Positions 2,290 to 22,246 of a stretch of 38,556 nucleotides of DNA are shown piece after piece. Every line of letters starts with the position of its first letter. Positions within the stretch are counted from its first letter, which is position 1. Under the pieces are notes generated by a model, which worked only from the letters and a program-made list of their open reading frames with translations, did not search any database and had not been told where the DNA came from. Origin of the DNA: a virus. The stretch is from IMG/VR virus record IMGVR_UViG_3300037119_001989, positions 1 through 38,556 of that record. One strand, 5' to 3'. Made by a program: the position numbers and the translations under genes.

Positions 2290-2712
2290 CTATAAAAGCG
2301 GATCCTCGTAGCGAATGCCCAGGTCCTCGCAGTCCTGCGGGGTGAGTTTCTCCATGACCTTCCTGCGTCGCTCCTTCCGTTCCTCGCGTGCAGCGAACTC
2401 CGCTGCCTCCCGACGATCCTGTTCTTCGTGCCTCTCCCACCACTCCTTCAGCTCACAGTCAACCTTCGGGCTGTCGCGGAAGGTGTTCTCCAGGGCCACC
2501 TTGACGGAGTTGTTGGTGCGCAGCAGCGCGCACAGCTTGGCCGCATAGTCGTTATCCTTTCCGTCGATGAGGTCCTCCGTCACGGCAGCCTTGAGGCCGG
2601 GCATGATCGCGACGTCGAGAGCGCGGATGTAGAGCCGTGCCACGTAGCGACGACGGTCCTTTTCCGCAGCGCGGTTCTCTCGGTCAGTTGGGTATGCGTC
2701 GTGACAGGGCAT
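2290..2712 (-). CDS. Hypothetical charged protein
   Basis: 140 residues from the ATG at 2712, chosen over an in-frame ATG at 2730 because CGGAG lies a normal distance upstream of 2712. It opens MPCHDAYPTDRENR, a start I associate with small phage proteins of unknown role. The middle is helical, and the C-terminal third is a very charged coiled-coil-like helix (RREAAEFAAREERKERRRK). No catalytic motif is visible. It is preceded by the tiny gene at 2715-2807 and followed by leader P1. Confidence 0.6.
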   Translation of the reverse strand: MPCHDAYPTDRENRAAEKDRRRYVARLYIRALDVAIMPGLKAAVTEDLIDGKDNDYAAKLCALLRTNNSVKVALENTFRDSPKVDCELKEWWERHEEQDRREAAEFAAREERKERRRKVMEKLTPQDCEDLGIRYEDPLL

Positions 2713-2714
2713 GG

Positions 2715-2807
2715 TTATTCTCCGAGCCATTTCCGGGTGAGGATGAATCCCTTACGCAGGCGGCCCTTGCCCAGGGCCACCGCGAGGGAGAGCGGGAAGC
2801 GGATCAC
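2715..2807 (-). CDS. 30-residue basic peptide
   Basis: GTG at 2807 overlaps the upstream TGA as GTGA, GGGAG lies 8 nt before it, and the frame stops at TAA 2715-2717. The peptide VIRFPLSLAVALGKGRLRKG continues for ten residues to WLGE. The overlap style and ribosome binding site match the accepted genes around it, and it fills an otherwise empty gap of about 90 bases. Function unknown. Chance openness cannot be excluded at this length. Confidence 0.45.
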   Translation of the reverse strand: MIRFPLSLAVALGKGRLRKGFILTRKWLGE

Positions 2808-3028
2808 TTGTTCCACTCCCAGTCGAACTTCGCATTGTTCCAAACGGGCTTAACGTAGACCCCGGTCTTCACTTCGCGTCGGTAGCGGCGCGACACCTTG
2901 GCACGGTGGCAGAGGATCGTCCGCACAGTGGGTGCATGCGCCCCACCAGTGCGCCCCAGCTCGACGGCGAGCTTGCATGTCCAGGCGGCGATGGAGTTGG
3001 CAGCAGTGGGCTTGTGGAGGACGATCAT
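2804..3028 (-). CDS. Hypothetical small basic protein behind leader P2
   Basis: 74 residues from the ATG at 3028, with AAGGAG at 3035-3040 provided by leader element P2. The sequence has a helical start (ANSIAAWTCKLAVELGRTGG), then a basic segment (CHRAKVSRRYRREVKTG) and an aromatic tail (WNNAKFDWEWNK). No known family. It is probably co-transcribed with the 30-residue peptide and the 140-residue protein that follow. Confidence 0.6.
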   Translation of the reverse strand: MIVLHKPTAANSIAAWTCKLAVELGRTGGAHAPTVRTILCHRAKVSRRYRREVKTGVYVKPVWNNAKFDWEWNK

Positions 3029-3095
3029 GGCTAGCTCCTTGCGCGGGTGCGCGGCTGGTATGACTACTTGATAGTCTGTAGCTTGGAAAGCACAA
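3029..3095 (-). promoter_or_regulatory. Leader element P2
   Basis: On the minus strand TTGTGC (3090-3095), a 16-bp spacer and TATCAA (3068-3073) are followed by GCGC-ACCC-GCGC (3041-3052) and AAGGAG (3035-3040). The dyad around the -10 box differs from P3 by a matched pair of changes (GGC..GCC becomes GAC..GTC), so the symmetry is kept. The promoter lies within the 3' end of the HTH gene at 3064-3306. Confidence 0.65.
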
Positions 3096-3306
3096 GGGGA
3101 TTCTTTTCAGCCCATGCCAGCACGTACGCAATGGTCACCCTGCCGCCCTCGTCGTTCATCACGCGGTTGAGCGTATCCCAGGACATGCCCATCTCAGCGG
3201 CGACGTCGAGTCGGCTTCGGTCCTTCCCCTCCAGCTGGCGGATGATCTGCTTCGCCCGATCCCTGTCCTGCGTCATCTGTGGGGTGATCCGCATTCTGCC
3301 GCCCAT
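3064..3306 (-). CDS. Predicted HTH transcriptional regulator
   Basis: 80 residues with AAGGAG ideally placed before the ATG at 3306. The centre (residues about 31-52, RLDVAAEMGMSWDTLNRVMN) has the spacing of an XRE/Cro-type helix-turn-helix, with Ala-Ala-Glu in the first helix and a polar recognition helix after Gly-Met-Ser. The remainder is helical. This is the best candidate in the window for a phage repressor or early-late switch, and it could recognise the dyad in the six leader elements, one of which (P2) lies in its own 3' end. That link is inference. Confidence 0.6.
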   Translation of the reverse strand: MGGRMRITPQMTQDRDRAKQIIRQLEGKDRSRLDVAAEMGMSWDTLNRVMNDEGGRVTIAYVLAWAEKNPLVLSKLQTIK

Positions 3307-3415
3307 GTTCCAGCTCCTTGATTCGCGCGTCCAGCTTCAGCAGCAGTTCGCGCAGGTTTTCGTTATTGACCAGCCGTTGCCCGGCTACGTCCTCGAAGCA
3401 GTCTTCTACATTCAC
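3194..3415 (-). CDS. Hypothetical protein overlapping the HTH gene
   Basis: GTG at 3415 overlaps the upstream TGA as GTGA. The first 37 residues (NVEDCFEDVAGQRLV, then NLRELLLKLDARIKELEH) read like a genuine helical protein. The last 36 residues overlap the HTH gene by 113 nt and are low-complexity Asp/Gly/Pro/Arg, so the tail may be only the shadow of the better-supported regulator. Either the gene is real with an unusually long overlap, or a stop codon has been lost. Function unknown. Confidence 0.4.
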   Translation of the reverse strand: MNVEDCFEDVAGQRLVNNENLRELLLKLDARIKELEHGRQNADHPTDDAGQGSGEADHPPAGGEGPKPTRRRR

Positions 3416-4597: not shown

Positions 4598-7171
4598 TCA
4601 GCAAAACTTTCTCAAGAACGCCACCTTATCGACCGCTTTGGTGTACCCTGCCGCATGTATGCCAGCAACTGCCCAATGGCTCTTTAGCGTGCCCTTACGC
4701 GACCCCACCGCACCCATCTCGCGCACACCAGCGGTCTCGAACCCGAGCATACGGAGCATGCGCCCGAGCGACTGGCCAGTGGGTGCCTCTCCTTCATCAG
4801 CCAGTATGAGCTTCAGCGACTCCAGCTCCACCACGTTGCGGTTCACAGTGGGCACAGCAGCACCGTCCAGGGCCGCTTCTACAGCCACCTGGAGGTCGCT
4901 CTTGCTGTCCTGCACCATCTGCGCCTTCGACTGCGTAGCGAGCGCGCGGTAGGCGTCGAACCCCTTCAGCGACACCCCTTGCAGCCACCCAGCGAGCGCG
5001 TCCGCGTGGTCCCGTGCGGCAGCGGCCAGCTTGATGAAGTACTTCCTTGCCGCTGCCCGGCCGCCGAGGTCGTCGATGAACTCCAGCCCGTGCCAGCGCG
5101 ACGAGCAGACGTAGTAGCGGCGATCCATGGCCACGATGGGCAGAGCGTTGGCGTGGTTCGTGCCCATGATGTATGACGTGACGTTGCGCGTGGTGTACTT
5201 CGGCCGTCCCTTCGGGTGGATCGCGATGACGTCGTTGGTGATGGCTGGCTTCAGCACGTTCATGACGTCCCACTTGGCCCGCCCCTCGACGTACACCTCT
5301 TCCACCATGCACACCTGACGCGAGTCAGCCCAGTCGTTGAACTGCACGTACATCAGCGTCTCGTTGCCGAGCACATCCACGTTCGTGTTGCCCAGCACTG
5401 AGCGCAGCAGGTCATGGACGATCATGGTCTTGCCACAGCCTTCAGGCCCCCGCATGAGGAATGCCCACCGCACGCGCTTGCCGGGGTTCTGCACCACGTA
5501 CGCCATGAACTGCGTGAGGACCTTGGCATGCTCGGGCCCCAACAGCCAGTCCAAGTGGCCCTTCCACAGGGCGACGGCTGCCTCGCCACCCTCGTCCAGC
5601 AGCATCTCGTCCACTGGCTCCACCGTGCAGGCGCGGTAGGTGTTGAGCAGCTGGACGCCGTCCTGCTCCATGATTCGCTCGTCGCCCGGGCTGTAGCGCA
5701 CCGAGGACACCTTCTCCACCAGCTCAGCGTTAACCAGCAGGTCAGTCGGCAGGACGTACGGATGCAGCTTGCCCTGAGCCTTCATGACGTCGGTGATGAG
5801 CCGCGCGGAGTACATCATGTTGAACGTCTTGGTGCCATAGGCCACCATGTTGTCGATGTTGATGAACGACCCTTCCTTCTCCGAGCAGAAGACGAACGGT
5901 GCAGCCCACTCGGGGCAGCCTTCCTTCGTCACCGTGCGCGCGTAGTTATAGGCGGTGATCAGGTCGACGGCCCGCTTGGTCATCTTCTGACCGTTGGTGA
6001 CCTCCTTGTACTTGGCCATGAACGCGTCGACCATGGTCTCACGCGACGAGTCGAACAGCTCCAGCCCTGAGATGCTACGGGCCACGTCACCAGTCAGCTC
6101 AGTAACGGACAGGGCGCCGTCGATGAGGGCCAGTGCGTCCTTGAGCATGCGCACGTCCGCGCGGGCCACCTCCTTGCGCCGCGTGTCGGACAGCTCGGCA
6201 CCGTCGCTCCCGCTGCCACCCATGGCCACCCGGACGTCCATGCCCGCGTCCTTGGCCATCTTGATGACCGTGCGCATGGTGACGTCGCTGCCCTCGCCAC
6301 GCTTGCCGAACGATTCCCATTTGATGGTGCAGTCCTCATCGCCTTCCCAGTTCTCAGGCGTGTCGCCCGACCACAGCACGCCAGCGGACCAGCGTTGGAA
6401 CAGGTCGAGGCCATCCTCAGGCCATTGGCAGTGCAGAGCCATGCCAACCGCCATCCAATCACCATACCCGCACGAGGGGTCGATGGCGGACAGCAGTGTC
6501 TCGGCCTCGGGCAGCTCCATGGCCACGCGCTTGTCCAGCGACGCGAGCATCTCCTCGTCGGTGCCACCTGGGGTCGCAGCTGTCTCCTTCACACGCGGGC
6601 GGCACACCAGGGGCTGCGCCTGCTTGGCGACGTATACCTTGGGATCGTAGGAGAGGAAGCACAAGCGGGAGCAGTCGCTACCAGACTTGTCCAGCTTCGG
6701 CCACCCCTGCGCCTCGCTGTGCTTCTTGCAGGCAGAGTATGCATCCTTGTGGGTGGCCTCGTCCTTGAAGCGTACCGCCATCAGCACCTTCAGCCCCGAA
6801 CCACGGGGAGAAACGAAGGCGGCCACCACATGGGGGTCGGCTGAGACCTTGGCCCGCAGCGAGCGGATGGCCTTGTCGGTCAGCTCATCATAGTCCAGCA
6901 TCACCAGTTTGCTGTGACTGAGAATCCCGCTGGCCTCACGCTTCTCGAACTCACCTGACCATGTGACCGCCGGCAGGTTCTTCTTGAAGCGCTCAGCGTC
7001 CGCATCGCTGGCATTGCGTATCCGCCCGATGGCCTTGGCCAGCACGTCGTCCGACCGGATCCTATCGAGTGCCTCCCCCACCGTCGTCCGGCTCCCAGCT
7101 GTATCGCTGGCCCGGCTAAATTCGCTGATAATTACCTGCTTTACATCCTCGATAAGTCGCATATCCTTCAT
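4598..7171 (-). CDS. Primase-helicase (VirE-N/BT4734-like, PriCT-2, SF3-type helicase)
   Basis: 857 residues. The N-terminal part (about 1-190, with SKLVMLDYDEL and SPRGSGLKVLMAV) matches the BT4734/VirE-N primase-type domain of phage and plasmid primases. Residues of about 205-305 (ETLLSAIDPSCGYGDWMAVG, ALHCQW) match the PriCT-2 linker. The C-terminal half is a superfamily-3/D5-like helicase: Walker A GPEGCGKT at about 575-582, Walker B VCMVEE near 620, and an arginine-rich sensor region (IVAMDRRYYV). It should unwind the replication fork and prime synthesis for the phage polymerase. It is transcribed away from the structured divergent region, and a hairpin terminator follows it. The start ATG at 7171 is the first in frame; an ATG three codons later is possible. 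Confidence 0.85.
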   Translation of the reverse strand: MKDMRLIEDVKQVIISEFSRASDTAGSRTTVGEALDRIRSDDVLAKAIGRIRNASDADAERFKKNLPAVTWSGEFEKREASGILSHSKLVMLDYDELTDKAIRSLRAKVSADPHVVAAFVSPRGSGLKVLMAVRFKDEATHKDAYSACKKHSEAQGWPKLDKSGSDCSRLCFLSYDPKVYVAKQAQPLVCRPRVKETAATPGGTDEEMLASLDKRVAMELPEAETLLSAIDPSCGYGDWMAVGMALHCQWPEDGLDLFQRWSAGVLWSGDTPENWEGDEDCTIKWESFGKRGEGSDVTMRTVIKMAKDAGMDVRVAMGGSGSDGAELSDTRRKEVARADVRMLKDALALIDGALSVTELTGDVARSISGLELFDSSRETMVDAFMAKYKEVTNGQKMTKRAVDLITAYNYARTVTKEGCPEWAAPFVFCSEKEGSFINIDNMVAYGTKTFNMMYSARLITDVMKAQGKLHPYVLPTDLLVNAELVEKVSSVRYSPGDERIMEQDGVQLLNTYRACTVEPVDEMLLDEGGEAAVALWKGHLDWLLGPEHAKVLTQFMAYVVQNPGKRVRWAFLMRGPEGCGKTMIVHDLLRSVLGNTNVDVLGNETLMYVQFNDWADSRQVCMVEEVYVEGRAKWDVMNVLKPAITNDVIAIHPKGRPKYTTRNVTSYIMGTNHANALPIVAMDRRYYVCSSRWHGLEFIDDLGGRAAARKYFIKLAAAARDHADALAGWLQGVSLKGFDAYRALATQSKAQMVQDSKSDLQVAVEAALDGAAVPTVNRNVVELESLKLILADEGEAPTGQSLGRMLRMLGFETAGVREMGAVGSRKGTLKSHWAVAGIHAAGYTKAVDKVAFLRKFC

Positions 7172-10732: not shown

Positions 10733-11019
10733 GCCTGCCACACGTTCCCGGGGAACTCACCGTTGCTGACCTGTGCCAGAAAGCACTCGAAACCTGGGAC
10801 CACAAGAACGAGGCGGATAAGGCTCTCGTCTCCACCCTGGCACTCCAGGCCAAATGCTTCGATGAGATGCAGCTCGCGGCGTCCAATCTGCGTGCCGCTC
10901 TCGGCGAAACGAAAATCCTCGACCAGATCATCAAGTGGCGCGGTGGGGTGTACCGCCTGCGTTGCTGCCGTTCTGGACGGTGTGATATCGACCCCGTCCC
11001 GTACCTCGATCTCAATTAA
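10729..11019 (+). CDS. Hypothetical small protein
   Basis: 96 residues from ATG 10729, which overlaps the upstream stop as ATGA. It is helical (TVADLCQKALETWDHKNEAD, then TLALQAKCFDEMQLAASNLR) with a Cys/Arg-rich end (YRLRCCRSGRCDIDP). Three closely spaced Cys might bind metal, but no known pattern fits. Part of the recombination operon. Confidence 0.6.
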   Translation: MSLPHVPGELTVADLCQKALETWDHKNEADKALVSTLALQAKCFDEMQLAASNLRAALGETKILDQIIKWRGGVYRLRCCRSGRCDIDPVPYLDLN

Positions 11020-11042
11020 CCCGCATCCTGAAAGGAAGCAAC

Positions 11043-11684
11043 ATGGCCGAAAAGCTGATGACCCCCGAGTTCCGCATGTCCTATGCGTGGCTCCTCCAGC
11101 CCAAGAAGAACAAGCAGGACGAGACCAAGAAGGCCAAGTACTCCGGCATGATCGTGCTGGACAAGAGCCTCAAGTCCACGCGCATCTTCATCGCCAAGCT
11201 CGAGAAGGCCCTGCTCGCGGCCAGCCTCGAGAAGCATGGCAAGGTGATCCCGAAGTCCAAGCTGAAGCACTGGCCCATCAAGGACGGTGACGACGGCGAT
11301 GCCGAGGGCGAGGTCAACCCCGCGCACGAGGGGTGCTGGTGCATCAACGCCAGCTCCAACCGCAAGCCCCAGGTCATCGACCGCAAGGGCCGCGAGCTGC
11401 TCGACGAGGAGGAAGTCTACTCGGGCATGTGGTGCAAGGCGACGATCCACTGCTGGGGCTGGGACAACCCGGCCAGCGGCAAGGGTGTGAGCGTCGACCT
11501 CGACAACGTCATGAAGACCAAGGACGACGAGAAGCTCGGCGGCAGCGGCACCAAGGCCGAGGACGACTTCGCCGACGAGCTCGAAGACGGCGATGATGAC
11601 GAGGAGGATGACGACGAGGACGAGAAGCCCGTCCGCAAGCCGGTCAAGAAGAGCAAGAAGAGCTCGGACGACGACCTGCTCTGA
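11043..11684 (+). CDS. DUF2815 single-stranded DNA-binding protein
   Basis: 213 residues, AAAGGAAG before the ATG. The first 140 residues (MTPEFRMSYAWLLQPKKNK, YSGMIVLDK, VYSGMWCKATIHCWGWD) match DUF2815, a phage family with an OB-type fold related to gp2.5-like SSBs. The C-terminus is a long Asp/Glu tract ending DDDLL, analogous to the acidic protein-interaction tails of SSBs. It would coat single strands made by the helicase and nuclease and recruit partners. It is usually found next to DUF2800 and a family A polymerase, as here. Confidence 0.8.
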   Translation: MAEKLMTPEFRMSYAWLLQPKKNKQDETKKAKYSGMIVLDKSLKSTRIFIAKLEKALLAASLEKHGKVIPKSKLKHWPIKDGDDGDAEGEVNPAHEGCWCINASSNRKPQVIDRKGRELLDEEEVYSGMWCKATIHCWGWDNPASGKGVSVDLDNVMKTKDDEKLGGSGTKAEDDFADELEDGDDDEEDDDEDEKPVRKPVKKSKKSSDDDLL

Positions 11685-16694: not shown

Positions 16695-17492
16695 ATGAGA
16701 ATCTTCATACCGACTCGCAGCCGTCCCCACGATCAAGTCACGCTCAAGAGCCTGGGGTCTTCCTCACGCCTCGCGAGCTTGGTAGTGGACCATGACCAAG
16801 TCTCCACCTATCGCACGGCGGGGTGGAAGAACGTCATCGGTCTGCCGAAAGACGTCAAGGGAATCAGCCGCATACGCAGCTGGATCCTGAGAACGGCAGT
16901 GGACGACGTTGTGGTCATGATGGACGACGACCTTTCCTTCTACGTGCGAGGCCCTAAGAAGGACAAGGCTGCGGCTACCCCGTTCAGCCTCTACACAGCA
17001 AGCGACAGCGACGTCAGCAAGATGCTGCGCAAACTCGACAAGCTGCTGTCCACACACGCTCACGCTGGCATCTCGCCGCGTGAAGGGAACAACCGCGTCG
17101 CGAGTGACGTGGTGTTCTGCACCAGAATGATGCGAGTCATCGCGTACAACAAGAAGCTCTTTGGGGAGTCCGGATGTGACTTCCACGACTCGAGTTGGTT
17201 CACCATGGATGACTTCGACATGACGCTTCAGCTCTTACGAGCTGGGTTCGCGAATGCCGTCGTCTACGACTACTGCAACAATCAAAAGTCCAGCAATACC
17301 CCCGGTGGTGCCAGTGACTACCGCACATCCGAAAGCCATGCGCGCTCCGCAAGGGAGGTAAAGCGCCGGCATCCGGAGTTCGTGCGCTTGGCCACCAAGG
17401 CGACGAAGACCTCGTGGGGCGGAGGCATGGGTGGCGAACGGCTGGACATCGTCGCCAGCTGGAAGAAGGCATACGAGAGCAGCCTGCTATGA
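16695..17492 (+). CDS. TAGT-like DNA-base glycosyltransferase
   Basis: 265 residues with a GT-A layout: IPTRSR at the start (residues 5-10), GISRIRSWIL (about 56-65), a DDD metal and nucleotide-sugar motif at 77-79 (MMDDDLSFY), MDDFDMTL at 171-178 (catalytic-base region), then GGASDYRT, a HPEF motif and a SWKKAY end. This order matches the TET-associated glycosyltransferase family (TAGT) of phages, which glycosylate hydroxymethylated bases in DNA. No TET/JBP dioxygenase is visible in the window, but a hydroxymethyl-pyrimidine could come from the thymidylate synthase homologue two genes downstream. The stop overlaps the next ATG. Substrate and sugar are unknown. Confidence 0.7.
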   Translation: MRIFIPTRSRPHDQVTLKSLGSSSRLASLVVDHDQVSTYRTAGWKNVIGLPKDVKGISRIRSWILRTAVDDVVVMMDDDLSFYVRGPKKDKAAATPFSLYTASDSDVSKMLRKLDKLLSTHAHAGISPREGNNRVASDVVFCTRMMRVIAYNKKLFGESGCDFHDSSWFTMDDFDMTLQLLRAGFANAVVYDYCNNQKSSNTPGGASDYRTSESHARSAREVKRRHPEFVRLATKATKTSWGGGMGGERLDIVASWKKAYESSLL

Positions 17493-18325
17493 CCATGATT
17501 CACGCATTCTGCAACTTCATCTTCGAGCGCGAGCAGGTGCGTCTCAAGCGCAAGCGCGGCCACCCCGCACCGTGGACGGAGGACCCCATCCTGCGCGAAT
17601 GGCGGTTCTGCAACGTGGACCGCGAGCACGACCGCGAAACCATATGGATTCGTGAGTACATCCGCGGGCCGCACGCAGATCACCCGTCTCTGTGGTTCAA
17701 CCTCGCGCTGGCGCGCTTCGTGAACTGGTCACCCACGCTCGACCAGATGGGCTTCTACAAGACGTGGATGCCGAGTGACTTCATCAGCGTGATGGAGACG
17801 CGCAAGCAGCATGGTCAGAAGGTCTGGTCAGGTGCCTACATCGTCAGCACCAACGGTGCCACCAAGCCGAAACCGAACTACATCGCAGAAGACGTGCTGA
17901 CCCCCATGTGGGGGCGGCGCAAGGAGACCAAGGACTTCACGGAGTGTGCCCACTGGGCAGAGTTCTTCCTGTCGTGCAACGGCATGGCGAGCTTCATGGC
18001 CAACCAAGTCATCACGGACATGAAGTACACGCGGTATCTGGTCAATGCGCTTGATCGCCACACGTTCGTCCTCGCCGGCCCCGGCACCAAGCGTGGAATC
18101 AACAGGTTCTTCGAGCGCGACTTGGGGTTCACCAAGGCCAACTTCGAGCATGAGCTGATCGCGATACGCAAGCTGGTCTTCCGCGAGCGCAACATGCGCA
18201 GGTACTTTGACGGGGCCTTCGAGGACCTGAATAACCTGAGCAACTGCTTCTGTGAGTTCGACAAATATCAACGAGTCAAAAACGGGGAGGGCACACCGCG
18301 CTCCCGCTACACACCAAGGACCTGA
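17489..18325 (+). CDS. 5-hmdU DNA kinase helical domain protein / thymine pyrophosphorylase-like
   Basis: 278 residues, ATGA overlap with the glycosyltransferase gene. The opening FCNFIFEREQVRLKRKRGHP, APWTEDPILREWRFCNVDRE, HDRETIW is the signature I know from the helical domain of 5-hydroxymethyl-dU DNA kinases and the alpha-glutamyl/putrescinyl thymine pyrophosphorylase group. Those act on hydroxymethyl-uracil in phage DNA to install a leaving group for further substitution. No Walker A motif is present, so this is the stand-alone helical version. The overlap with a TAGT-like gene and adjacency to a thymidylate synthase homologue support a role in base hypermodification. The exact reaction is inferred. 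Confidence 0.68.
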   Translation: MTMIHAFCNFIFEREQVRLKRKRGHPAPWTEDPILREWRFCNVDREHDRETIWIREYIRGPHADHPSLWFNLALARFVNWSPTLDQMGFYKTWMPSDFISVMETRKQHGQKVWSGAYIVSTNGATKPKPNYIAEDVLTPMWGRRKETKDFTECAHWAEFFLSCNGMASFMANQVITDMKYTRYLVNALDRHTFVLAGPGTKRGINRFFERDLGFTKANFEHELIAIRKLVFRERNMRRYFDGAFEDLNNLSNCFCEFDKYQRVKNGEGTPRSRYTPRT

Positions 18326-18328
18326 TTC

Positions 18329-19354
18329 ATGCACGTCATCGCCGCACGCAATGTCAACGACGCTTACAACCAGGGGGGACAGCTCATCCGTGATTACGGG
18401 AAGGAGCAGGACACCCGGTATGGCAAAGCCCTGGTCGTGGAGATGCCCGTCACCACGCGGTACAGCCACCCCACCGAGCGCGTCCTGTTCGACGCCAAGC
18501 GGGACGCCAACCCGTTCTTCCACTTCTTCGAGGCCCTGTGGATCATCAACGGCCAGAAGGACGTGAAGACGCTGGCCTACTTCAACAAGCGCATGGCCGA
18601 GTTCTCGGACGATGGTGTGAACTATCATGCTCCGTACGGCTATCGCCTGCGCCACACCCCATGCCCCGTCCGCGACTACATGGACCAGATCGAGGAGTCC
18701 ATCAAGCTGTTGAAAGCCAATAACAACAGCCGGCAGGTTGTTATGTCGATCTGGTGTCCGTCTCGGGACCTGGGGGCCAGCAAGAAGGACATCCCCTGCA
18801 ACGACATGATCAAGCTGCGCATCGTGAACGGTGCGCTCGACATCATGGTCTTCTGCCGCAGCAACGACATGATCTGGGGTGCCTACGGGGCCAACGTGTT
18901 CCAGTTCTCCTCGCTCCAGGAGTACATCGCAGGCTGCGTCGGCGTGCCGGTCGGTGCGTACTACCAGATCAGCTGCGATTTCCATGCCTACGTGGACACC
19001 TGGGAGAAGGCTGACCCCTGCGGGCCTTACGCTGGCGACCCGTACATGACCATGACGAACATCAACACGTTCCCCATGTTCGCGGGCATACCGACCGCCG
19101 ACAAGTGGGATAACGCACTCGCGGACGTCATGGAGACGGTGGACGCCATCGCCACGGGTGCGCCGGAGATGCATGTCATCGGCTTCAACGACACGGACGT
19201 TCCGTACTTCGACCATGTGGCCATCCCGCTGCTACAGTCGTGGATGTTCTACAAGGAGCGGAACTTCCAGAAGGCCCTGAATGCGCTCACGCTGTGCGCG
19301 GCCGATGACCTCGCCTTCGCGGCCAAGCAGTGGCTCCAGAGGCGCATCAAGTGA
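18329..19354 (+). CDS. Thymidylate synthase homologue, probable dUMP hydroxymethylase
   Basis: 341 residues; AAGGA precedes ATG 18329. Visible features are the FFEALWIINGQKDV helix, YHAPYGYRLR, SRQVVMSIW, catalytic Cys157 in IPCND, phosphate-binding CRSND (176-180), and Asn189 in WGAYGANVFQFS. Asn at that site selects uracil, while dCMP hydroxymethylases carry Asp. The WGAYGAN form and the PCN in place of PCH are typical of phage homologues rather than cellular ThyA. It could make dTMP or 5-hydroxymethyl-dUMP from methylene-folate. The neighbouring modification genes favour the latter. It lies 3 nt after the kinase-type gene and overlaps the HD nucleotidase. Confidence 0.8.
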   Translation: MHVIAARNVNDAYNQGGQLIRDYGKEQDTRYGKALVVEMPVTTRYSHPTERVLFDAKRDANPFFHFFEALWIINGQKDVKTLAYFNKRMAEFSDDGVNYHAPYGYRLRHTPCPVRDYMDQIEESIKLLKANNNSRQVVMSIWCPSRDLGASKKDIPCNDMIKLRIVNGALDIMVFCRSNDMIWGAYGANVFQFSSLQEYIAGCVGVPVGAYYQISCDFHAYVDTWEKADPCGPYAGDPYMTMTNINTFPMFAGIPTADKWDNALADVMETVDAIATGAPEMHVIGFNDTDVPYFDHVAIPLLQSWMFYKERNFQKALNALTLCAADDLAFAAKQWLQRRIK

Positions 19355-19944
19355 GCGGCCCGGTTCTCACCCCCCATGGCGTGATGATGGGCATCCGCTG
19401 TGGGGGTGCGGTGAAACGCTGGCACGCGCACCCCGTCCATATGCAGCAGACGGTCGCGTCCCATTCGTGGGGCGTGGCCATGGTGATGAAGGCCATCTGC
19501 ATGCCGGACAAGCTGAGCGTCCCCCTGCTCCTGGCCGCGCTGGAGCACGACGTCGCCGAGGGGTATACGGGCGACATCCCGTATCAGGCGAAGAGGACCT
19601 TCCCCGACCTGAAGGCAGCGTCGCTCGCGGCCGAGGACAGCATCAACCGTGAGCTCGGCGTGATGGGTGCCACACTCACGGACTACGAGCAGCTCATGCT
19701 CAAGCTGTGTGACATGCTTGAGCTGATGTGGTTCGCGCTCGAGGAACGCAAGCTGGGCAACCGCAACATGGGCAACGTCGTGCCCCTGGGGACGGAAGCC
19801 GTTCGCCACCTGCTGATGCAAGCTAGCGAACTGCGGACTGTACACGATACATGCACGTATCGTATATTCGACGAGTCCGAGACCAAAGCTGCCGAAGACA
19901 TGCTCACCACCATTCTGAAGGACTATGCAAATGCAACAGGCTAA
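19351..19944 (+). CDS. HD-domain nucleotide phosphohydrolase (YfbR-like)
   Basis: 197 residues from a GTG at 19351 that overlaps the synthase stop. Metal ligands are visible as His38 (SHSWGVAM), His66-Asp67 (EHDVAEG) and Asp121 (LCDMLEL), the layout of 5'-deoxynucleotidases of the YfbR group that remove phosphate from dNMPs. Right behind a dUMP-modifying synthase, it could deplete dTMP or other competing nucleotides so that the modified one is used, as several modified-DNA phages do. It may also simply recycle host nucleotides. The substrate is not readable from the sequence. Confidence 0.75.
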   Translation: MSGPVLTPHGVMMGIRCGGAVKRWHAHPVHMQQTVASHSWGVAMVMKAICMPDKLSVPLLLAALEHDVAEGYTGDIPYQAKRTFPDLKAASLAAEDSINRELGVMGATLTDYEQLMLKLCDMLELMWFALEERKLGNRNMGNVVPLGTEAVRHLLMQASELRTVHDTCTYRIFDESETKAAEDMLTTILKDYANATG

Positions 19945-20449
19945 TGATTCTCAGGTCGGCGGAAGCCACTACCAAGCGAAGGACGGCTTCCAGCACTGGG
20001 ATCTCATGATCCTGCTGAACATGCCGTACACCATCGGGTGCGCGACGAAGTACCTGTACCGCTGGCGCGACAAGAACGGCATCGAGGACCTGAAGAAGGC
20101 CAAGCACTACCTCGAGAAGACGCTGGAGATGTACTCCACGATCAATGCGTGGCAGGGCAGCCGGCCGCTGCCGATCGCAGATGGCCACATCCCGTCCACG
20201 GTGGGTGCGGTGGAGCGCATGCTGTGCATGATGGCCCTGAATGCCTTCAACCCGCACCTCGTGGTGATCAACGGGCTGCCGGCCACCAGCGGGGAGCAGG
20301 TCCTCACGGAGGCCATCGCGGTCCTCGGCATGTACATCACGCAGGAGCAGGGAAATGACGTCTATGCGCCAGCGGCTCGTGCAGCGTTTGCGGCAGCGCA
20401 CCCGGACGCCAGTGACCAGCCGAAGGCCAGTGAGCTCCACCCCGGTTGA
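19925..20449 (+). CDS. DUF3310 protein with C-terminal extension
   Basis: 174 residues. The N-terminal 75 (VGGSHYQAKDGFQHWD, TIGCATKYLYRWRDKNGIED, LKKAKHYLEK) are the DUF3310 signature of phage proteins near nucleotide-metabolism genes. The function of DUF3310 is not firmly known. The remaining 90 residues are a helical extension (LCMMALNAFNPHLVVINGLP). The start overlaps the HD gene by 20 nt; ATG 19925 or 19931 are both possible. Probably part of the nucleotide-supply operon. Confidence 0.75.
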   Translation: MQMQQANDSQVGGSHYQAKDGFQHWDLMILLNMPYTIGCATKYLYRWRDKNGIEDLKKAKHYLEKTLEMYSTINAWQGSRPLPIADGHIPSTVGAVERMLCMMALNAFNPHLVVINGLPATSGEQVLTEAIAVLGMYITQEQGNDVYAPAARAAFAAAHPDASDQPKASELHPG

Positions 20450-21291: not shown

Positions 21292-21638
21292 TGCTTACCG
21301 TCTGCACCGACGTCTCCGAGTTCGACCTGCTCGGCCATCGCGCCATCAACCCCCCGCCCGGTGGTGCTTCCATGCACCTGCGCACCGTGGCCGCGAGCTT
21401 CGGCCTGGAGGACCAATCGACCGGCCTGCTCATGCGCTGGTACGACAAGGAGCTGAACAGCTGGTGCGTTGGCTACTGCGGCGAGTCCGGCGATACCTAC
21501 TTCACGACCTACATCGATGGCCCGCGCGCCCATGACGCATTCCTGGGGGCGTGTCGTCTCATGCTCAGCGCGTGCTTCATGTCGGAAGTGAACTTCACCG
21601 AGTTCATCACGACAGCCTACCGCATGGAGCTCCTGTGA
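21291..21638 (+). CDS. Hypothetical protein
   Basis: 115 residues, TAATG junction with the previous gene. Mixed sequence with an aromatic middle (GLLMRWYDKELNSWCVGYCG) and several Cys (positions about 5, 58, 62, 87, 94). The C-terminal half is helical (AHDAFLGACRLMLSACFMSE). No known family. Confidence 0.55.
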   Translation: MLTVCTDVSEFDLLGHRAINPPPGGASMHLRTVAASFGLEDQSTGLLMRWYDKELNSWCVGYCGESGDTYFTTYIDGPRAHDAFLGACRLMLSACFMSEVNFTEFITTAYRMELL

Positions 21639-22246
21639 ATGTCTTCGTCCTGGACACCGATCCGTACAAGGCGGCGGAGTACCACTGCGACGTCCACATC
21701 AACAAGATGCTCCTGGAGACTGCGCAGCTGCTGAGCTCCGTCATCCATGCCGTGGACCCAGGTGGCATCCGCTCCGAGTACGACGACAGCGTCGGCAGGC
21801 TGCGCCCTTGGTGGATGGGGGCCAACATCTACGGTCCAGCCATGGACAAGGGCTGCGCCGATGTGTGGTTCCTGTGGGCGAAGGCGTCACGGGGGAACAT
21901 GGAGTGGCTCCTGTCCCTGGCCGACGGTCTCAACACGCAGATGGAGCTACGCTGGCGCCACCCCGGCTACGCTCCGCACTCAGTGTGCCTGCACATCCGC
22001 CGCAACCTGGGCAGTCTCTGGCTGAAGGACTGGCCCACGTCCATGACGCCGTTCCCCTTGCGGCTGCCGCCGAAGATCGTGAATCTCGAGCTCGACCCCG
22101 TCACGTCCTACCGACTCCATTACGCAAGCGACAAGAGAAACATTGCGGAATGGAAAAAGGTCGGTAAGAACCCTCCATGGTGGGAAGCATCCTGCTCTTC
22201 CGCCGAAGCCCTGTCCCTCACCCGTTCCAAAGGAACACCCCCGTGA
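21635..22246 (+). CDS. Conserved phage protein with HCD-x-H motif
   Basis: 203 residues from a GTG at 21635 overlapping the upstream stop; GGAGC precedes it. The opening MNVFVLDTDPYKAAEYHCDV, HINKMLLETAQLLSSV is a signature I recognise from many tailed phages (V-L-D-x-D-P, then H-C-D-x-H-x(3)-M-x-x-E-x-A-Q-L-L). The end has the family's Y-x(4)-K-x(3)-A-x-WKK and PPWW elements. To my knowledge its function is not established. The invariant His, Asp and Glu suggest an enzyme. Its position after the modification and nucleotide genes makes it a candidate partner of that pathway, by inference only. Confidence 0.6.
   Translation: MNVFVLDTDPYKAAEYHCDVHINKMLLETAQLLSSVIHAVDPGGIRSEYDDSVGRLRPWWMGANIYGPAMDKGCADVWFLWAKASRGNMEWLLSLADGLNTQMELRWRHPGYAPHSVCLHIRRNLGSLWLKDWPTSMTPFPLRLPPKIVNLELDPVTSYRLHYASDKRNIAEWKKVGKNPPWWEASCSSAEALSLTRSKGTPP

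Follow-up and report, generated by a model that had tools for sequence, protein, structure and literature searches.

A four-gene cassette in the virus record IMGVR_UViG_3300037119_001989 probably makes a glycosylated 5-hydroxymethyl-2'-deoxyuridine (5-hmdU) that would replace some or all thymidine, with a TAGT glycosyltransferase in the slot of the DNA kinase of phage M6-type pathways and an HMUDK_hel protein (HEL) as the shared adaptor. The window analyzed is the entire IMG/VR contig (38,556 bases; terminal repeats absent). Its cassette (positions 16695 to 19944) consists of four plus-strand genes that overlap or abut in an operon-like arrangement: TAGT (16695 to 17492; 265 amino acids [aa]), HEL, which is a stand-alone HMUDK_hel protein also named aGPT-Pplase1 (17489 to 18325; 278 aa), a thymidylate synthase (TS) homologue predicted to be a dUMP 5-hydroxymethylase (18329 to 19354; 341 aa), and an HD 5'-deoxynucleotidase-like protein (19351 to 19944). 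TAGT and HEL overlap at an ATGA, TS follows HEL at 18329, and the most likely HD start is GTG 19351, which overlaps the TS stop in a GTGA, with 19330 as an alternative. Every protein exceeds the curated Pfam cut-off (E-values of 9e-23 for TAGT, 7e-43 for HMUDK_hel, 3e-21 for Thymidylat_synt, and 7e-12 for YfbR-like), and these profile-based assignments are far beyond chance. An earlier reading made from the sequence only (the sequence-only reading) had proposed four adjacent or overlapping genes of these families at this place; the open reading frames and profile searches confirm it, with only the HD start revised, and the motifs it quoted (IPTRSR, DDD, MDDFDMTL, and WGAYGAN with Asn189) are present. 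As it also stated, the helical protein has no Walker A motif; there is none in the cassette, and the sole convincing one in the window belongs to the primase (4598 to 7171). Its statement that the window has no TET/JBP gene agrees with the lack of any match in the window, in a search that had no positive control.

The mutual exclusion of kinase (PF18748) and TAGT (PF20691) is the robust part of an IMG/VR census of 80 HEL loci and 80 TAGT loci, plus 19 and 2, respectively, from single-sequence searches, all typed with local profiles. The loci in the census were those that best match proteins of the window itself and do not form a random survey, so proportions among them are not population estimates. 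TAGT was found in 49 and the kinase in 16 of 85 HEL-anchored contigs, with both in none (Fisher P = 9e-8), and the pattern was the same among 46 HEL proteins less than 75% identical (TAGT in 22, kinase in 10, both in 0; P = 6e-4). The 80 TAGT-anchored loci contained HEL in 71 cases, TS in 72, and HD in 36, but neither the kinase nor ADDT, the amino-acid branch of the M6 pathway, which occurred in the census with the kinase only. A small, separate sample of bacterial and archaeal genome contigs gave seven kinase loci, two TAGT loci, and none with both. PF18748 was absent from all 50 whole TAGT-bearing records, with M6 and locus L007 as working positive controls, and PF20691 was absent from all 37 whole HEL records that had a kinase or lacked TAGT. 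The window record has no PF18748 match, and the contig has no ADDT match. Of 122 TAGT+HEL loci, 4 had a small P-loop protein at a distance of up to 6 kb, versus 17 of 20 kinase loci.

The pairing of TAGT with HEL is common in viral metagenomes, and the two genes overlap or lie no more than 60 nucleotides (nt) apart in 76 of 121 loci (open-frame bounds). The sequence-only reading had called this combination unusual, a view contradicted by the frequencies above (71 of 80 TAGT contigs and 49 of 85 HEL contigs) and by a cluster noted in Pelagiphages (PMC9599517).

Partner exchange has occurred repeatedly around HEL. The HEL tree contains at least 10 changes between kinase and TAGT labels, and well-supported forks force at least five changes of the kinase label; several end branches are long and deep placements are unsure. 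Sister pairs with opposite partners include L095 and L078 and two cultured phages of Microbacterium, Neferthena with TAGT and Guetzie with a P-loop kinase. Both Neferthena (L187) and Guetzie (L189) combine HEL with an Asp-type, dCMP-like TS homologue, from which HEL may serve hydroxymethylcytosine (hmC) too.

The predicted glycosyltransferase matches the whole PF20691 domain (positions 1 to 205 of 205; 81.7 bits against a cut-off of 27.5) and phrog_842 (E = 1e-41). IPTRSR and MDDFDMTL are present, as is DDD at residues 77 to 79 (nt 16923 to 16931). The AlphaFold2 model (pLDDT of 94.6) has a GT-A fold, with a match to ppGalNAc-T2 (Z = 15.3, 4.2 Å, 222 residues), and DDD, R129, D173, R210, R249, and W256 are invariant among 57 TAGTs; the alignments behind the TAGT and HEL models were built from the window and viral-contig rows. 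TAGT is thus predicted from its model to be a metal-dependent GT-A enzyme, and a 2026 study gave the T6 TAGT the same GT-A assignment (PMC13216743). Neither single-sequence nor profile searches with TAGT gave a meaningful match to solved structures.

Some TAGT loci carry further genes. A 581-aa protein (L145:3318-5060), flanked by HEL and TS, fuses TAGT to a radical-SAM/SPASM domain, and radical-SAM/SPASM genes adjoin HEL or TAGT in L022, L059, and L061. Sugar genes stand beside some TAGT/HEL clusters, an example being L020, where a gene for an NAD-dependent nucleotide-sugar epimerase/dehydratase-like protein (2301 to 3380) lies directly upstream of TAGT-HEL-TS and hints at a custom sugar donor.

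HEL matches PF18723 at positions 3 to 277 of 281 (147.5 bits; cut-off, 25) and shares 37% identity with M6 gp55 at 97% coverage. The sequence-only reading had HEL activating the base and considered a stand-alone helical domain odd. Neither idea survives comparison with M6, which encodes its P-loop kinase (gp54; PF18748) separately from the helical protein (gp55) and has gp51 (PF18724, ADDT) as its amino-acid transferase; the window has no such kinase, kinase and TAGT are mutually exclusive, and HEL is also free-standing in PaMx11, Sonora, and ViI. Judged by its sequence, HMUDK_hel is not a kinase. In Bacillus phage Goe26 (L193:4053-5963), a single 636-aa protein combines a 5-hmdU DNA kinase with HMUDK_hel, which indicates a functional tie between the two. 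P-loop proteins beside HEL in M6 (gp54; L002:3686-4249) and PaMx11 (gp49; L191:7423-7992) carry the public label "terminase small subunit"; gp54 matches PF18748 and gp49 does so weakly, and both labels are probably misannotations.

The AlphaFold2 model of HEL (pLDDT of 94.4) best matches the fold of the PaMx11 gp46 5-PmdU glycinyltransferase (8z2n; Z = 10.9, 4.2 Å, 222 residues), followed by 8-oxoguanine and 3-methyladenine DNA glycosylases (Z = 8.0 to 9.7). These values come from VIA-align run on Foldseek's own candidates, with Z inflated for helical folds, and Foldseek itself returned nothing below an E-value of 0.001 for the HEL model; sequence searches against solved structures, single or profile, likewise gave no meaningful match. 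Support from the model for a DNA-glycosylase-type fold is good, with some doubt left, and suggests a DNA-binding protein able to handle a flipped base. That the top match is a transferase raises the alternative that HEL, like PaMx11 gp46, modifies the base itself as a transferase that adds its own group, with TAGT decorating the HEL product or another site. HEL retains many invariant residues and has co-linear motifs in common with ADDT (G-x-G-x-F/W...D; NxQ...C...K/D...Y/H), although the profile-profile comparison of the two by hhalign did not reach significance (probability, 1%; P = 0.05). In M6-type phages, however, amino-acid transfer belongs to ADDT, which coexists there with HEL, and the Goe26 fusion joins HEL to a kinase. 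Moreover, the invariant HEL residues are identical in kinase-linked and TAGT-linked members, and this independence from the neighboring enzyme argues for one common role. A transferase activity of HEL therefore appears rather unlikely.

The glycosylase fold would also suit an anti-defense or defense-type DNA glycosylase homologue acting outside any modification pathway, and the aGPT-Pplase domain is among the unvalidated defense candidates of DefensePredictor (PMC13092281). We regard this as highly improbable. Of 46 diverse loci, 43 have HEL beside TS, Goe26 carries HEL and the 5-hmdU kinase as one fusion, and PADLOC gave no match; a defense-system reading of HEL was rejected on these grounds. 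NCBIfam, like PADLOC, names neither TAGT nor HEL.

The TS homologue matches PF00303 and phrog_5131, the PHROG of the M6 protein (E = 2e-97), and shares 40% identity with the TS-family protein of M6 at 99% coverage; its closest phage matches are M6/YuA-type proteins. Its active site is in place (Cys157, Arg177, Asp180, His219, and Tyr221), with the uracil-type Asn189 in WGAYGAN (nt 18893 to 18895). The catalytic Cys, Arg, Asp, His, and Tyr are the same across the 122 TAGT and 19 kinase loci, as is Asn at the uracil position (122/122 and 19/19 TS proteins, respectively), which, in an alignment to solved TS, is taken by Asp in the solved CMP hydroxymethylase. Uracil is the substrate to which these residues point, and hydroxymethylation of dUMP is suggested by analogy with the M6 group (phrog_5131).

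The fourth protein matches YfbR-like PF12917 (45.8 bits; cut-off, 25.9), phrog_6047 (E = 2e-32), and phrog_7076, a dATP triphosphohydrolase family (E = 9e-15), and a metal-binding H...HD...D is visible in its translation; it falls below the cut-off of the NCBIfam YfbR equivalog (18.6 versus 122). It may lower dTMP/dTTP, and dTTPase activity is known in phiW-14 infection (PMC5977210).

In the proposed pathway, the TS homologue would convert dUMP to 5-hmdUMP, host kinases would raise this to 5-hmdUTP for incorporation by the phage polymerase, and the HD protein would reduce competing dTMP/dTTP. After replication, HEL, with its predicted DNA-glycosylase fold, would bind DNA and present the flipped hydroxymethyl base, and TAGT would attach to the hydroxyl one sugar donated by a host nucleotide-sugar (perhaps UDP-glucose), yielding base J or a close relative. 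A host donor is likely, as none of the genes identified in the window is for sugar biosynthesis, and a single sugar is expected from a single TAGT; Brevibacterium phage LuckyBarnes has two TAGTs, together with HEL and a TS that carries Asn. One slot would thus have two main occupants: the kinase, providing a phosphate that ADDT and other enzymes replace (M6 type), or TAGT, providing a sugar cap (window type). Since the sugar donor is already activated, glycosylation would need no prior activation of the base, which would explain the joint loss of kinase and ADDT when TAGT is present. The pathway of the sequence-only reading is supported in its start (5-hmdU made by the TS homologue) and its TAGT decoration, and its HD trimming is plausible; its activation step falls for want of a kinase.

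Several observations weigh against this proposal. The first concerns ctUhy936 (MW202897), an uncultured phage from Manatee Spring whose genome (complete circle, 40,378 bp) is collinear with the contig. It has TAGT, TS, HD, and a DUF3310 gene in the order of the window, but TAGT is followed directly by TS (L001:20777-20804), with nothing between them, and HEL was found nowhere in the complete genome, neither at this site nor elsewhere. HEL is hence not absolutely required for TAGT, and given this collinear relative we propose the role of HEL only conditionally. No TAGT-HEL fusion was found, and in a mirror-tree analysis the HEL-TAGT distance correlation (r = 0.58) was no higher than those of HEL-TS (0.68) and TAGT-TS (0.61) and thus does not point to a specific partnership. 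The remaining points concern the kinase and the TS homologue. Some divergent kinases, for example PaMx11 gp49, evade the PF18748 profile, and a gene in the portal/terminase part, which is not on the contig, could escape notice. Both points, with the occurrence of HEL in kinase systems, would favor an undetected kinase, encoded by the host or the missing genome part, that phosphorylates 5-hmdU with HEL, the TAGT sugar being a separate step added to an M6-like pathway. The absence of the kinase from all 50 TAGT-bearing records, the scarcity of small P-loop proteins near TAGT+HEL loci, and the failure of ADDT ever to occur with TAGT make this unlikely.

In addition, the active-site residues tested, taken from sequence, cannot separate hydroxymethylation from methylation. 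The TS homologue might then make plain dTMP, and TAGT might glycosylate a protein, a surface glycan, or hmC instead of 5-hmdU, as GT-A enzymes of similar shape glycosylate peptides and wall polymers. We consider this distinctly improbable, as the T2/T6 TAGT acts on phage DNA (PMC13216743), TAGT travels with TS and HEL in the census, and the TS homologue (P0003) groups with the family of M6, which makes 5-hmdU-derived bases (PMC6449724); hmC as the acceptor is further opposed by the uniform Asn of TS proteins at TAGT loci.

The preferred pathway, from 5-hmdU to its glycoside, resembles the thymidine hypermodification of M6 and PaMx11 in HEL, the TS homologue, the HD protein, a similar gene order, and 5-hmdU as the common intermediate (PMC6449724). 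M6-type modification sites are reported to show a TG/TC preference (PMC6449724). That pathway uses a P-loop kinase and ADDT; the window has neither in its cluster, and TAGT adjoins HEL instead. The T2/T6 TAGT (beta-glucosyl-HMC-alpha-glucosyltransferase) is like that of the window in its PF20691 domain, predicted GT-A fold, and (by prediction for the window) phage DNA acceptor, but it acts after alpha-GT, placing a second glucose on glucosyl-hmC (PMC13216743), whereas in the window TAGT is the sole recognized glycosyltransferase and accompanies a uracil-type TS. The predicted product is of the same class as kinetoplastid base J (JBP1/2 plus JGT), an O-glycosylated 5-hydroxymethyluracil. Kinetoplastid base J starts from thymine hydroxylated within DNA by JBP1/2; in the window, by contrast, 5-hmdU would arise at the nucleotide stage via the TS homologue.

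In Clade II Pelagiphages, a cluster of TS, aGPT-Pplase1, 5'-deoxynucleotidase, and "beta-glucosyl-HMC-alpha-glucosyltransferase" was noted in 2022 (PMC9599517). As in the window, one region holds aGPT-Pplase1, which equals HEL, and a glucosyltransferase named like phrog_842; the portion of that report considered here presents the genes as co-located, without a kinase-replacement pattern or mechanism. The mutual exclusion of kinase and TAGT, their repeated swapping around a common HEL, and the resulting prediction appear to be new, although the genomic link may have been published in part. Up to 2019, glucosylated 5-hmdU had not been reported from phages (PMC6449724), and the 2026 study found a solitary TAGT homologue, lacking alpha- or beta-GT, in 288 of 753 phage genomes and left its function open (PMC13216743). 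The solitary TAGTs sampled here adjoin a uracil-type TS homologue and HEL, so their likely acceptor is 5-hmdU, and a glycosyl-5-hmdU, a base J-type nucleoside in phage DNA, is predicted as a testable job for them.

More tentatively, and with rather less than even confidence, HMUDK_hel may serve generally as an adaptor with a DNA-glycosylase fold, flipping 5-hydroxymethylpyrimidines in DNA, perhaps setting the sequence preference, and presenting them to exchangeable enzymes (the P-loop kinase, TAGT with its GT-A fold, and perhaps further glycosyltransferases), such that the phage of the window and many environmental phages would make glycosylated 5-hmdU, base J or a relative, without a TET/JBP oxygenase. 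Behind the Pfam name "5-hmdU DNA kinase, helical domain" there seems to be a shared, enzyme-independent role. The cultured phages LuckyBarnes and Neferthena make the wider TAGT+HEL claim testable.

Candidate group-transfer genes other than TAGT and kinase occur in HEL+TS loci that lack both, namely, a sub-threshold TAGT in L059, a weak GT-B match in L015, and genes that look glycosyltransferase-like by eye only in L061 and L110; these are leads, not results. Some such loci have a radical-SAM/SPASM gene, and in L043 the next gene (10837 to 11610) has a weak sulfotransferase match below the cut-off.

The contig encodes tailed-phage proteins, including a primase, a DUF2800 exonuclease, an Enc34-type single-stranded-DNA-binding protein, DNA polymerase A, an SNF2 helicase, tail, tape measure, and connector proteins, a major head protein, and a head protease. 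Near-identical DNA was not found in the phage collection; compared with ctUhy936, the contig apparently lacks only the portal and terminase, as judged from sequence. A DUF3310 protein (PF11753; E = 6e-8) without a Walker A motif adjoins the cassette on the plus strand (19925 to 20449), of which it is an uncertain member; its neighbor in ctUhy936 is 58% identical over 102 aa. Just downstream, the product of positions 21551 to 22246 has no Pfam match and matches phrog_624, annotated as "DNA binding protein" (E = 1e-29).

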